From contig NZ_QEXL01000009.1 of NCBI RefSeq assembly GCF_003311635.1, positions 49,546 through 113,545 of the forward strand: a stretch of DNA of 64,000 nt. Direction: 5' to 3'. The translations under genes were made by a program, and so were the position numbers. Below are positions 1 through 7,935 of this stretch, piece after piece. The notes under the pieces were generated by a model. It did not search any database. It was not told the DNA's origin and saw only the letters and a list, made by a program, of their open reading frames with translations. Within the stretch, counting starts at the first letter, position 1, and each line of letters starts with the position of its first letter. This DNA comes from Novacetimonas cocois (lineage in GTDB: Bacteria > Pseudomonadota > Alphaproteobacteria > Acetobacterales > Acetobacteraceae).

Positions 1-1017
1 CTGCGCCACGGCGTTCGTGCCTGCGTCGAATGGCGCGATTTCGAACGCACCCAGCGGGCCGTTCCACACCAGCGTCTTCAGCGTCGCGATGCGCGTGCAC
101 AGGTCACGCACGGTCTGCGGGCCGATATCAAGGATCATCGCGTCATCCGGGATGGCGTCGATGGCGACAACACGCGTGGGTACGTTGGCCTTGAATTCGG
201 TCGCGGTCACCGCATCGACCGGCAGCACGACCTCGCACCCCTTTTCCCTGGCCTTCGCCAGGATGGCGCGCGCGGTGTCATGCATCTCCCCTTCCTGCAG
301 GGAACGCCCGACTTTCACGCCCTGCGCCGCAAGGAACGTGTTGGCCATCGCGCCGCCGATGATCAGCACCTGCACCTTTTCCAGCAGGTTGCCGATCAGG
401 TCCAGCTTGGTGGAGATCTTGGCCCCGCCAATGATCGCGCCCACCGGGCGTTCGGGATTTTCCAGCGCGATGTTCAGCGCGTTCAGCTCCGTCTCCATCA
501 GGCGTCCGGCAAAGGACGGCAGGTGGCGTGCCACGCCCTCGGTGGAGGCATGGGCGCGGTGGGCCGCGGAAAAGGCATCATTGACGTAAAAATCCGCCAG
601 TGACGCCAGCGCCTTTGCCAGTTCGGGATCGTTGGCTTCCTCGCCGGGGTGGAAACGGGTGTTTTCCAGAACCACGACGTCCCCGTCCTGCATGGCGTCC
701 ACCGCCTGCTGTGCGACGGGACCGACGCAGTCCGCGGCAAAGGTCACGGGACGGCCCAGCGCGTCGCCAAGCGCATCGGCAATCGGGGCAAGCGACATTT
801 CCGGCACGCGCTGGCCCTTGGGGCGGTCGAAATGGCTGACGACGATGACGCGCGCGCCCTTCTGCGCCAGTTCCTGTATGGTCGGCAAAAGGCGGAGCAG
901 GCGGGTGGCATCGGTAATCTGCCCCCCCTGTACCGGAACGTTCAGGTCCGCACGCAGAAGAACCTTCTTGCCTGCGGGCTGAAGCTGATCCAGCGTCTTG
1001 AAAGCAACGGTAGCCAT
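1..1017 (-). CDS. pgk: Phosphoglycerate kinase (3' end outside window)
   Basis: Phosphoglycerate kinase interconverts 1,3-bisphosphoglycerate plus ADP and 3-phosphoglycerate plus ATP in the cytosol. The frame is open from ATG at 1017 down to base 1, giving 339 residues of a family usually near 395-400, so about 55 C-terminal residues lie outside. Visible family motifs include RADLNVP near the N-terminus, the HFDRP substrate-binding segment, [10 protein letters not shown], and GGAKISTK with LIGNLL following. The ATG overlaps the gap stop codon by one base (TAATG), so the two are translationally coupled in one operon. Identity is confident; only the C-terminus is unseen. Confidence 0.95.
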
Positions 1018-2039
1018 TACAGGGACCCGAACAGCGCGGCAGTGTCGGACATACGGTTGGAGAAGCCCCATTCGTTGTCATACCAGCTGCAGATGCGCAC
1101 CAGCTTTCCGCCGTCGATCACCGCCGTCTGTGTCGCGTCGAAGGTGGAGGAAGCAACCGAATGGTTGAAGTCCGAGCTCACCAGCGGGGCGGTGTTGTAA
1201 TCAAGGATCCCCTTGAGCGGCCCTTCGGCGGCGGCCTTGCGCATGGCCTCGTTCACGTCCTCGACGGAGAAGGGCGCGCGCGTCGGCACGAAGTCGAGCG
1301 AGACGAGCGAGACGTTGGGCGTCGGCACGCGGATGGCGGTCCCGTCGAGGCGTCCCTTCAGGTGCGGCAGGACCAGCCCGACGGCGCGCGCCGCCCCGGT
1401 GGAGGTCGGGATCATGTTCAGCGCCGCGCCACGCGCCCGGCGCGGGTCCTTGTGCAGCGTATCGACCGTGCGCTGGTCGCCGGTATAGGAATGGATCGTG
1501 ACCATGTAGCCGCATTCGATGCCAAAGGCGTCGTCCAGCACCTTTGCCACCGGGGCAAGGCAGTTGGTCGTGCATGATGCGTTGGAAATGACCGTCATGT
1601 CGGACGTCAGCACGTCCTGGTTGACGCCATAGACGATCGTCGCATCCACACCCGACGCGGGGGCGGAGACGATGACCTTGCGCGCGCCCGCCCGGATCAG
1701 CTGCGAGGCGCTTTCCTTGTCGGTGAAGCGGCCGGTGCATTCCATGGCCACGTCCACGCCTTTGAACGGTACTTTCGTCGGATCAGCCTCGGCCGAGACA
1801 TGGATCGGGTCATAGGTGCGGCCATTGGCCTTGATGATGATGCTGCTGCCTTCGACGCGGACTTCGGCCGGGAACCGGCCATGCACGCTGTCATAGGACA
1901 GGAGGTGGGCGTTCGCCTCGACACTGCCGAGGTCGTTGATGGCGACAGGGACGACATCCGTGCGTCCGCTTTCGATAATTCCGCGCAGGACGAGGCGACC
2001 TATGCGACCGAAACCGTTGATCGCGACTTTGACAGCCAT
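1017..2039 (-). CDS. gap: Glyceraldehyde-3-phosphate dehydrogenase
   Basis: Type I phosphorylating GAPDH, oxidising glyceraldehyde 3-phosphate to 1,3-bisphosphoglycerate with NAD(P)+. At 340 residues it is full length. The N-terminal Rossmann motif NGFGRIGR is at residues 8-15, the catalytic SNASCTTNC motif puts the nucleophile at Cys156, and the C-terminal [12 protein letters not shown] motif is intact. An Asp follows the second Rossmann strand (AINDLGS), a context usual for NAD-using enzymes. It lies 19 bases downstream of a transketolase-like gene and overlaps pgk by one base, so the three are probably one minus-strand transcript. The family arrangement tkt-gap-pgk is common in Alphaproteobacteria. 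Confidence 0.97.
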
Positions 2040-2058: not shown

Positions 2059-4068
2059 TCAGTTCTGTAATGCAGCGTTTCGTATGGACGCGCCCGAAAA
2101 AGGAAGATCCCCGTCATGCGGCCGATGGCGTTGGCCATGGGCCTGGGTGCTGTTGTCGGCGGCATGGATCAGCTCCATTGCCCTGGCGACGATATGTTCG
2201 GGCTGGATGGCGCCGCTGCGGCCCTGCTGTCCATCGGCAGGCGCGTCCTTGCCAAAACCATCGATCCCGATGAATGCCCCTTCCTGTCCCAGCCAGCGTT
2301 CCCATCCAAAACCGGACGCGGCTTCCACGCCGATCCGGGGTGCCGTTCCCAGCACCCTTTCACGATAGGATATTTTTTGCGCCGCGAACAGTTCCCAGCA
2401 TGGCAGGGACACCAGCGCGGCGCCAATTCCGCGTTCGCGCAGCATCAGCTGCGCCGTGCGCGCGGTTGCCAGTTCCTGCCCCGTGGCGATCAGCGTCACC
2501 TGCCGCGCCGATGGGGACTCGGCCACTACATAGCCGCCGCGCGCGCACTGGTTCGTCAGCGCGGGGGCCTCGGGCAGGGTTGCATCACTTGCGACGTCAA
2601 CGGCGGGAATGAACGGATACAGCGTCAGCAGGCTGGGCCCGTCCGTCCGGTCAAGGGCCAGTTCCATGCATTCCATGGTTTCGCGCCGCGTGGCCGGGCG
2701 GAAAACCGCGACATTGGGCATGGCGCGCAGGCTGGCAAGCTGCTCCACCGGCAGCCATGCCGGACCGTCCTCTTCGGGCGACAGGCCCCCGTCGGTCAGG
2801 CAATAGATCACCTGGCGTTTCATCATGGCGGCAAAGCGCAGGGCGGGACGCATGCGGTCCACCGCCACGAAGGTCGCCGTCCCGCACGGCAGGAAGCCGC
2901 CATGCATCGCAATCCCGTTCAGCAGCGCCGCCATGCCATGCACCTGGGTGTCGCATCGCGTCGGCAGGGCGGTCGGCCCATGCGCCACGTTGCCGCCCGA
3001 CGCAAGCCCGAGGCGCGAGCGCAGGCACAGCACTTCGGGCAGGAGTTCGCGCAGGATATCCAGCCCCCGCCGGGCATAGCTGGTGGTCGGCAGCGCGGGA
3101 TGGGACGCATGGTGCCGTCCGGCCCCCTGCCATGACCTGCGCCAGTCCGTATGCCACAGGGCGGGACGCTGTCCGGAAATGATGCGCTCGAAATCGATGC
3201 GCTGGCGGTCCTTGCCCAGCCGCCGCAGCCACGACCGCCGGGCCGTTGCCCCGCGTCGCGATGCGGAAGCCCACAGCCCCGGATCATCCACGAACGGTTC
3301 GTCCGTTTCGGCCACGGGCGGCGGCGACAGGCAGGCGATCAGGCAGGGGCGGTGCGTGCGGATGGACGCCGCGAGTGCCGTTGCGATCTGGTCGGGCTGG
3401 TCCGCCGCCACCTTGCGCACCGACCATCCCGACGCGGCATAGCGGGGGAGGGCGGCCTCCGCCTGCACGCGTTCATGTTCCGACAGGCCCACCAGGACGG
3501 TGATGCGTTCCAGTCCCATCTGTCCCGCAAGGGCCGCCGCCTCCAGCGCCACGCCGGTGGACAGTTCGGACCAGCAGCTGATGGCCCATATGCGGTGGTT
3601 GACCAGCGTGCGCCCGAAACGCGCGGCCATGTGCTGTTCCGCCATGGCCATGCCGATGGCCGCGCCCAGGCCCTGACCACTGGGGCCGAAGCCCATGGTC
3701 GTTGCCGGATGGGGGGCATCCCCGGTCCTGAGCGCCGCCTGTCCCGACAGGGAGACGAGCGCGTTGACGAGGGTGCGGTACCGCACCGAGGACACCACGA
3801 AACGGTCGCGGTCGAACCATGAGGGGGCGACGGGATCGAACCTCAGATACCGGCTCCACAGCACGGCGCAGGCCGTCGCCATCGCGCAGGCATGGATGAC
3901 GTGGTGGCTGTCGGGTTCGTGCGTGCGGACGAACTGCCGGATGGCGGCGGCAAGGCGCCCTGTCTGGTCCAGTGGCGCGCGGGCCATGGGGGCGCCGGAA
4001 TCTGGGGAAACGGGACCGGGGGCGGTGGGGCCGGTATGCGCAGGTCGGGTATTGCTGGGCTGTTCCAT
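2059..4068 (-). CDS. Transketolase-like protein, probably a pseudoenzyme
   Basis: A 669-residue protein with recognisable transketolase architecture (PSWFDRDRFV, GPSGQGLGAAIGMAMAE, HGMAALLNGIAMHGGFLP, PVEQLASLR) after a Pro/Ala-rich leader of about 35 residues. Active transketolases bind thiamine diphosphate through GDG...N; the aligned positions here read SCW (164-166) and GLSEHE (194-199). The GHGS histidine is replaced in SVRYR (about residue 96), the catalytic Glu of VREFGM is absent from TQVHGM (374-379), and the HDS histidine of the second half is Thr in LTDGG. The frame is intact, so this is a divergent full-length protein rather than a decayed gene. It is first in the gap-pgk operon, where a true transketolase would be expected. 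Catalysis seems unlikely; a structural or regulatory role is inference. Confidence 0.75.
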   Translation of the reverse strand: MEQPSNTRPAHTGPTAPGPVSPDSGAPMARAPLDQTGRLAAAIRQFVRTHEPDSHHVIHACAMATACAVLWSRYLRFDPVAPSWFDRDRFVVSSVRYRTLVNALVSLSGQAALRTGDAPHPATTMGFGPSGQGLGAAIGMAMAEQHMAARFGRTLVNHRIWAISCWSELSTGVALEAAALAGQMGLERITVLVGLSEHERVQAEAALPRYAASGWSVRKVAADQPDQIATALAASIRTHRPCLIACLSPPPVAETDEPFVDDPGLWASASRRGATARRSWLRRLGKDRQRIDFERIISGQRPALWHTDWRRSWQGAGRHHASHPALPTTSYARRGLDILRELLPEVLCLRSRLGLASGGNVAHGPTALPTRCDTQVHGMAALLNGIAMHGGFLPCGTATFVAVDRMRPALRFAAMMKRQVIYCLTDGGLSPEEDGPAWLPVEQLASLRAMPNVAVFRPATRRETMECMELALDRTDGPSLLTLYPFIPAVDVASDATLPEAPALTNQCARGGYVVAESPSARQVTLIATGQELATARTAQLMLRERGIGAALVSLPCWELFAAQKISYRERVLGTAPRIGVEAASGFGWERWLGQEGAFIGIDGFGKDAPADGQQGRSGAIQPEHIVARAMELIHAADNSTQAHGQRHRPHDGDLPFSGASIRNAALQN

Positions 4069-4862: not shown

Positions 4863-5108
4863 CCGCGTGTCAAAAGTGGAGATTTTTTAAATTTCACGAC
4901 AGCCCAGCCATGGTGACCCGGCGGCCGAAGGCATATAATACTGGGTGGATATGAAGTAATCCGGCCCGTGGGGCGTGACATTGCCGTTCCATGCCGTGGA
5001 AGATCGCACGGTGAAACCCGTCGCCGATGACACGTGGGGGCCCGTGCCCCCGGGTGGAATGACGGTTGGTCGTGGGCATGGAACGAGTTCGCATGGAAAG
5101 GAAGATCA

Positions 5109-6404
5109 GTGTCCAGTAATCATTCGGACGGCCATCCATTCTACAGGTTCTGCCGCACGGCACTGGCGGATATCCGGACGCAGGGTCGCTATCGCCAGTT
5201 CACGCCGCTGGCGCGCGAGGCGGATCGCTATCCCGTCTATGAACAGGAAGAAGCCCCCGCGACGCCGGCCACCCCCGCATGCGACCATGACCGCGAGGTC
5301 GTGGTCTGGTCGGCGAATGATTACCTGGGCATGGGCGTCGAACCCGTGGTGATGAACGCCGCGATCGCCGCGATCCGCGAACATGGCGCGGGCGCGGGGG
5401 GCACGCGCAACATCGCGGGGACCAGCCCGCTCCATACCGCGCTGGAACGCGAACTGGCGGACCTGCATGGCAAGGAAGGGGGGCTGCTGTTCGTTTCGGG
5501 CTATGTCTCCAACCAGGCCAGCCTGCAGACGATCCTGACGAGCATGCCGGGCTGGATCTGCTTTTCGGACCGGCTGAACCATGCGTCCATGATCGCGGGG
5601 ATCAAGGGCGCGCGCGGTTCCACCACGGTGATTTTCGAACATAACGACCTTGCCGACCTCGAGGCCAAGCTGGCGGCGGCCCCCGCCGACGCGCCCAAGC
5701 TGATCGCGTTCGAAAGCGTGTATTCCATGGACGGCGACATTTCCGATATCGCCGCGACCTGCGCGCTGGCCCGCAAGTACAACGCCATGACCTATCTGGA
5801 CGAGGTGCATGCCGTCGGCCTGTACGGCGCGCAGGGTGGCGGGATTTCCGAACGCGACGGCGTGGCCGATCAGGTGGACATCATCGAGGGCACGCTGGCC
5901 AAGGGGTTTGGCGTCCATGGCGGCTATGTCACCGCGTCAAGCGAGATTATCGAATATCTGCGCCTGGCCGCGTCGGGCTTCATCTTCACCACCGCGCTGC
6001 CGCCTGCCGTTGTCGCCGCCGCGCTGACCAGCGTGCGTCAGGTGCGCAAGGACGGATGGCGGCGCGACAGGATGTTCGAGCGCGTGAATGCCTTTCGCGC
6101 GCGCCTGCGCAAGGCCGGGGTGCCCTTTACCATGACGCCCAGCCATATCGTCCCGATCCCGGTGGGCGATGCGCAGCGCTGCCGTGAACTCAGCGACCGT
6201 CTGCTCAACGAATACGGACTGTATGCGACCCCGATCAATTATCCCACCGTTCCCCGCGGGACGGAGCGCCTGCGCCTGACGCCGGGGCCGTTCCATACCG
6301 ATGCGATGATGGACCAGATGGTTGCCGCCCTGTCCACCCTGATGGGAATCCGCACGACCGCCCCTGCGGCGGTGGGCGAAAAGGTGGCTGAACCCGCCCG
6401 GTGA
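5109..6404 (+). CDS. hemA: 5-aminolevulinate synthase
   Basis: PLP-dependent condensation of glycine and succinyl-CoA to 5-aminolevulinate, the Shemin-route first step of heme synthesis typical of Alphaproteobacteria. The 431-residue product carries [22 protein letters not shown], the [10 protein letters not shown] segment, the [10 protein letters not shown] motif with its PLP-contacting Asp and His, and the Schiff-base lysine in TLAKGFG. The start is GTG at 5109, because AAAGGAAG at 5097-5104 is a good Shine-Dalgarno four bases upstream and the translation then begins with [15 protein letters not shown]. An upstream ATG at 5034 would add 25 residues with no family similarity. A strong hairpin follows the stop. 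Confidence 0.95.
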
Positions 6405-7137: not shown

Positions 7138-7935
7138 TCAGCGGGTATGGGCGATGGCCTGCTTGAGTTCGTCGTAATCCACGGCGCCGGGGATGATCTG
7201 GCGGGCGTTCATGACAAAGGTGGGCGTGCCATCCAGTCCGATTCCATGGCCCAGCTCCATGTTGGCCTGAAGGATGGCGGTGACCTTGGGGCTGTTCATG
7301 TCCTTGGCCAGCTGGTCGGCGTTAAGCCCGCACTGCTTGGCCAGGGTGCGCATCCGTTCGACCGTGGGGGCGGCGGAATCGGTCATGATGGCGTGCTGCA
7401 GCTTGAAATACGCGCCCTGTCCCCCTTCCTCGAAGGCGGCGACCAGCGCCTGCGACGTGATCAGGCTGCCCTGTCCCAGGACGGGCACCACCTTTTCAAG
7501 GATGCGGACATCCTTGTCCTCCGCGACGATGCGATCCAGATCCGGCAGCACCTTGCGGCAGTAGGGGCAGCGGGGGTCATAGAATTCGACGACGGTTACC
7601 TTGGCCTGCGCGTTGCCCAGGATCGCATCCGACGCCGCCGGGTTGAGCAGGGCGGAACGATGGGCCGCCAGTGCCTGCTGTGCCGAGAGCTGCTGCTGGT
7701 TGGCCGCATTCTGGCGCAGCGAGGTGATGGCGTCGGACAGGATGGTGGGATCGGTCTTGAGCGCGTTGCGCACGATTTCCACGATTGCCTTGCGCTGCGC
7801 GGGGGAAAAGACGTCGGTGGCGGCACCCTGCGCAAATCCCGGGGTGGGGATGCAGGACGTCCCCGCAAGGAGTGCGGCTGCCGTTGCGGCGGGAAACAGG
7901 CGGCGCAGCCGGCGGATGCTGTTGGATATGGGCAC
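7138..7935 (-). CDS. DsbA-family periplasmic thiol:disulfide protein
   Basis: A thioredoxin-fold protein with a CPYC active site (residues 123-126 from the chosen start) in the context EFYDPRCPYCRK, and a GTPTFVMN cis-proline segment near the C-terminus. It resembles the Com1/DsbA-like DSBA oxidoreductases with an N-terminal helical extension. The start is GTG at 7935: GGAGG lies six bases upstream, and translation then gives an Arg-rich n-region, a hydrophobic core and a cleavage-like GFAQ near residue 36, i.e. a secretory signal. A longer frame to ATG 8034 would bury the signal. It likely acts in the periplasm on disulfides; oxidase or isomerase role is unresolved. Confidence 0.85.
   Translation of the reverse strand: MPISNSIRRLRRLFPAATAAALLAGTSCIPTPGFAQGAATDVFSPAQRKAIVEIVRNALKTDPTILSDAITSLRQNAANQQQLSAQQALAAHRSALLNPAASDAILGNAQAKVTVVEFYDPRCPYCRKVLPDLDRIVAEDKDVRILEKVVPVLGQGSLITSQALVAAFEEGGQGAYFKLQHAIMTDSAAPTVERMRTLAKQCGLNADQLAKDMNSPKVTAILQANMELGHGIGLDGTPTFVMNARQIIPGAVDYDELKQAIAHTR

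Follow-up and report, generated by a model that had tools for sequence, protein, structure and literature searches.

What maintains a transketolase-like gene whose product carries almost none of the residues of a transketolase active site? The window analyzed here, a 64,000-nucleotide stretch of the Novacetimonas cocois genome (contig NZ_QEXL01000009.1), raises this question with a reading frame, hereafter TKL, that is open throughout its 669 codons, as the initial annotation had stated. TKL is the first gene of an operon and lies directly upstream of gap, which begins 19 bp after the TKL stop and is followed by pgk, in agreement with the operon proposed earlier. Homology, dN/dS, and codon-position GC (0.71/0.56/0.80) rule out a chance reading frame. 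The features discussed below are listed here; those of TKL draw on Pfam, an alignment to Escherichia coli TktA, AlphaFold2, and Foldseek.

1..1017, minus strand: pgk, phosphoglycerate kinase, presumed to start at the stop codon of gap and truncated by the edge of the window
1017..2039, minus strand: gap, glyceraldehyde-3-phosphate dehydrogenase, 19 bp beyond TKL; has a GGAG site of its own
2059..4068, minus strand: TKL, putative pseudo-transketolase, 669 aa
TKL aa 1-36: N-terminal extension
TKL about aa 37-250: PP-like domain
TKL aa 251-365: linker
TKL about aa 366-500: Pyr-like domain
TKL about aa 501-612: C-terminal domain
TKL aa 613-669: variable tail
3568..3576, minus strand (calculated from residue numbers): C165-W166-S167 of TKL, the former GDG motif, with Trp at the Mg-binding Asp (D155 of E. 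coli TktA)
5034..6404, plus strand: divergent upstream neighbor, start codon uncertain, by its sequence a putative 5-aminolevulinate-synthase-like (hemA-like) gene

The pgk gene is not fully readable in the source assembly, owing to unread bases (X in the translation) just before window position 1 (G000:C75; L037 about 7490-7545).

Several lines of evidence identify TKL as a transketolase homolog over its whole length, as the initial annotation had claimed. The protein matches Pfam Transketolase_N, Transket_pyr, and both C-terminal models, all over cut-off and together covering its length, and the Pfam and structural matches place the PP, Pyr, and C-terminal domains in transketolase order. Its closest solved relatives by sequence are all transketolases. 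An AlphaFold2 model built with 40 homologs as input (pTM 0.81, mean pLDDT 79, cores near 90) is of low confidence in the tails and in the former active-site loops 359-366 and 428-437. When this model was searched against the PDB with Foldseek, the top 50 matches listed were all transketolases, aligned over the full length (TM about 0.75, 22-30% identity). TKL is thus predicted to keep the three-domain transketolase fold. Its score against the transketolase equivalog TIGR00232, however, is 279 bits, below the cut-off of 682, whereas two controls, an intact ortholog and the paralog from this genome, each reach 837 bits.

To describe the active site we scored 20 cofactor, substrate, and catalytic positions of E. 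coli TktA, a set that we selected from what we know of transketolase structures. TKL scores at best 3/20: it keeps G114 (GPSGQG), D469, and a His aligned at position 26, where the surrounding segment is otherwise dissimilar to the motif. Elsewhere H66 is replaced by R, D155-G156 by W-S, R358 by T, D381 by R, S385 by A, E411 by V, F434/F437/Y440 by T/A/R, H461 by D, H473 by W, and R520 by P; the N185 loop is shortened to GLSEHE, and H261 is deleted with its loop. The ThDP/Mg motif GDG...N is consequently absent, as are the catalytic Glu (E411) and the substrate-binding His/Arg/Ser set. The alignment confirms, with 17 of the 20 residues gone, the earlier reading of the GLSEHE segment and of the losses of the GHGS His, the Glu before FGM, and the HDS His. 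It corrects that reading at two points: GDG (154-156) is indeed lost, but the aligned residues are CWS and not SCW, which is one residue off, and nearly every ThDP and catalytic motif has gone rather than every one, since G114 and D469 remain. The losses are concentrated in the pocket. TKL keeps 3/20 active-site columns vs 63/127 other columns that are invariant in active enzymes (p=0.004), which argues that the constraint on the protein is not for catalysis, and most degenerate copies show this preference to a like or greater degree. These alignments strongly support a loss of ThDP chemistry, and transketolase activity has probably been lost with it.

We searched 150 Acetobacteraceae genomes, with further searches for gap and for the active enzyme described below, and read the DNA upstream of gap. 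TKL proves orthologous to the gap-linked transketolase that this family ordinarily has, and the gap-linked locus exists in three states: intact, degenerate, and absent. The intact enzymes have the same locus and gene order as TKL and about 40-50% identity to it but, unlike TKL, keep their active-site residues (19-20/20 in the 15 scored). Degenerate copies number 44, none scoring above 8/20 and a few truncated at contig ends; they include those of N. entanii, N. hansenii, and N. maltaceti (82-83% protein identity to TKL) and of Komagataeibacter species (59-61%), where the gene is likewise open. Frame decay was not seen among the homologs, and internal stops were not reported in the degenerate copies. 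The same open degenerate gene in all species checked rules out a sequencing or assembly error as well as frame decay. Contrasting states occur within each of two genera (8/20 in G214 vs 20/20 in G176; 3/20 in G205 vs 20/20 in G216), and three copies at the locus are intermediate, at 16, 14, and 13 of 20. The first two of these belong to two species of one genus, G196 (L192, 16/20) and G092 (L047, 14/20); they may represent early steps of the loss and may still be active.

Degenerate copies adjoin gap, with the sole exception of G117, so that linkage to gap-pgk is usual and not absolute. In that genome TKL (L051:6071-7951) is an open frame away from gap-pgk, between an aconitase-like gene and a hemA-like gene, the latter the same kind of gene as the divergent upstream neighbor in the window, and gap has no transketolase upstream. 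Many relatives without TKL have lost the gene outright yet carry gap-pgk and a second transketolase.

The claim that TKL is retained under selection is supported by the dN/dS values, calculated by NG86, a crude method at high GC. Whole-gene values are 0.09-0.21 among Novacetimonas species and mostly 0.08-0.25 within Komagataeibacter. By part, they are 0.10 (PP-like), 0.08 (linker), 0.09 (Pyr-like), and 0.13 (C-terminal) in Novacetimonas and 0.15, 0.16, 0.19, and 0.13 in Komagataeibacter; only the N-terminal extension and the tail are relaxed (0.42-0.62). The active paralog gives 0.05-0.18 and gap mostly <0.1. Because the core values (0.08-0.19) are close to those of the active paralog, the folded part of TKL is a constrained protein under purifying selection across species. 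Several other TKL pairs lie at 0.11-0.25, including G105/G010 at 0.146. Constraint appears weaker in G211/G223 (0.51), G039/G041 (0.48), G042/G123 (0.42), and G053/G130 (0.37), which are diverged pairs, some with ORFs that include unaligned upstream frame; in the same comparison, pairs of intact enzymes reach 0.25-0.39. Across 12 diverged degenerate copies, 90 positions that are invariant in the intact orthologs are fixed.

Could TKL nonetheless be a decaying relic without function? Its frame would then persist because translation of the first gene shields gap-pgk from polarity, and the cost of misfolding would keep dN/dS low. TKL does open the operon, with 19-32 bp between it and gap and with its stop near the gap ribosome site; the gene has been lost from related lineages; and copies at 16, 14, 13, and 8 of 20 resemble stages of erosion. 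Polarity, however, guards against stop codons and not against amino-acid change, to which the core dN/dS values refer, and neither the open gene of G117, with no gap alongside, nor the 90 fixed positions are expected of a relic. Low dN/dS can also reflect selection against misfolding of an expressed protein, so this explanation accounts for the gene-less lineages and the intermediates, and for the core values only if misfolding cost alone is responsible. We consider it rather unlikely.

The source genome has one other transketolase-N match, on contig C56, which keeps 20/20 active-site residues and adjoins a transaldolase/glucose-6-phosphate-isomerase-like fusion and a gnd-like gene (a tkt-tal/pgi-gnd cluster). 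This paralog rules out TKL as the sole transketolase of the genome. At L036:8595-11642 (G000:C56), one long ORF apparently comprises transaldolase and glucose-6-phosphate isomerase and is followed by the gnd-like gene. All thirteen non-gap-linked enzymes that were scored have 20/20 residues; the Komagataeibacter-like genome G060 carries two such copies (L159 and L160). Within the 150-genome sample, in a table read by eye, every degenerate copy examined is accompanied in its genome by a further full-length transketolase (the extra copies of G053 and G130 are unscored by residue), and many genomes with an intact gap-linked copy have no other transketolase match. The co-occurrence fits a release from catalytic selection after a second enzyme came.

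An active transketolase in each sampled genome with TKL also suggests that the two proteins might pair, with TKL modulating the activity of its partner. Transketolases are dimeric, and TKL retains the segments HGMAALLNG and ExAAxLAG, which we take to be dimer-interface segments of known transketolases. Yet the active enzyme belongs to another subfamily, lies in a separate clade of the tree, and is about 28% identical to TKL. Many relatives, moreover, have this enzyme and no TKL. A heteromer is therefore improbable. More generally, an obligate partnership of TKL, whether with the active transketolase or with gap-pgk, is disfavored, because many relatives carry both without TKL and because identity to the active enzyme is so low.

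How often the active site was lost can be approached from two trees. In the tree of the neighboring Gap protein, degenerate copies fall in several groups among intact ones, with about ten label changes; in the transketolase tree, most are grouped inside the gap-linked clade on long branches, which may attract each other. The residues at 434/437/440 are T-A-R in the group of the window, L-A-A in G105/G010, and S-G-C in G053. Such differences in replacement between groups tend to favor repeated erosion of the active site. Six substitutions (R381, V411, T434, A437, R440, and D461) are common to the TKLs of G000, G060, and G042, which represent Novacetimonas, Komagataeibacter, and a third genus; among these the former pocket is thus conserved again. 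Residues at these positions differ in other degenerate lineages, however, and the AlphaFold2 model shows little order in the former active-site loops, which makes new ThDP-independent catalysis in a remodeled pocket very doubtful.

The account that we consider probable is that TKL is a widespread pseudo-transketolase that a second transketolase released from catalysis and that persists through a predicted non-catalytic role. It shows two marks of a pseudoenzyme, namely homology to an enzyme with the catalytic residues lost and purifying selection across species; the third mark, a non-catalytic function, is predicted. The transketolase of an ancestral tkt-gap-pgk operon would have lost ThDP binding and ketol transfer once a second enzyme, here that of the tkt-tal/pgi-gnd cluster, made its reaction dispensable; their co-occurrence is observed, and the order of events is presumed. 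The cofactor pocket appears to have eroded while the predicted three-domain fold remained under purifying selection, and the combination implies that the selected property of folded TKL is non-catalytic. TKL is most likely a stand-alone, probably homodimeric, binding protein, which may act as a scaffold or regulator tied to the co-encoded lower-glycolysis enzymes or as a sugar-phosphate sensor. Its role is dispensable, given that many relatives have lost the family altogether. A bolder proposal, which we offer tentatively and do not expect to hold, is that the gap-linked transketolase of Acetobacteraceae has an old second, non-catalytic function that survived several independent losses of catalysis; TKL would be its pure form and a new class of bacterial central-carbon regulator or scaffold.

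Within this one bacterial family, the copies at 20, 16, 14, 13, 8, 7, 3, and fewer of 20 residues form a natural series from a central metabolic enzyme to a conserved non-enzyme, in which intact, intermediate, dead, and absent states can all be compared. TKL genes are easily counted as transketolases in cellulose-producing acetic acid bacteria, so that pentose phosphate capacity may be overstated in databases and metabolic models.

TKL and the bacterial transketolase (EC 2.2.1.1; TIGR00232, E. coli TktA) have the full-length three-domain fold in common, and with the intact gap-linked enzymes TKL also has operon position and ancestry in common; it is set apart by the missing 17 of 20 cofactor and catalytic residues and by its TIGR00232 score. 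A description of these bacterial proteins was not found in literature searches; for one cellulose-producing strain, the genome paper gives four tkt genes and does not comment on them (PMC5908849). The nearest case in kind is human TKTL1, which, like TKL, is a transketolase paralog that exists alongside an active enzyme and is missing invariant residues of the PP domain. What TKTL1 lacks is a PP-domain segment of 38 residues and 8 invariant residues, and its deletion model showed no activity (PMC3485151), although its inactivity is disputed by a modeling study that argues for activity (PMC6334435). By comparison the losses in TKL are far greater, extend to almost all of the site in both domains, and came about by separate events in bacteria.
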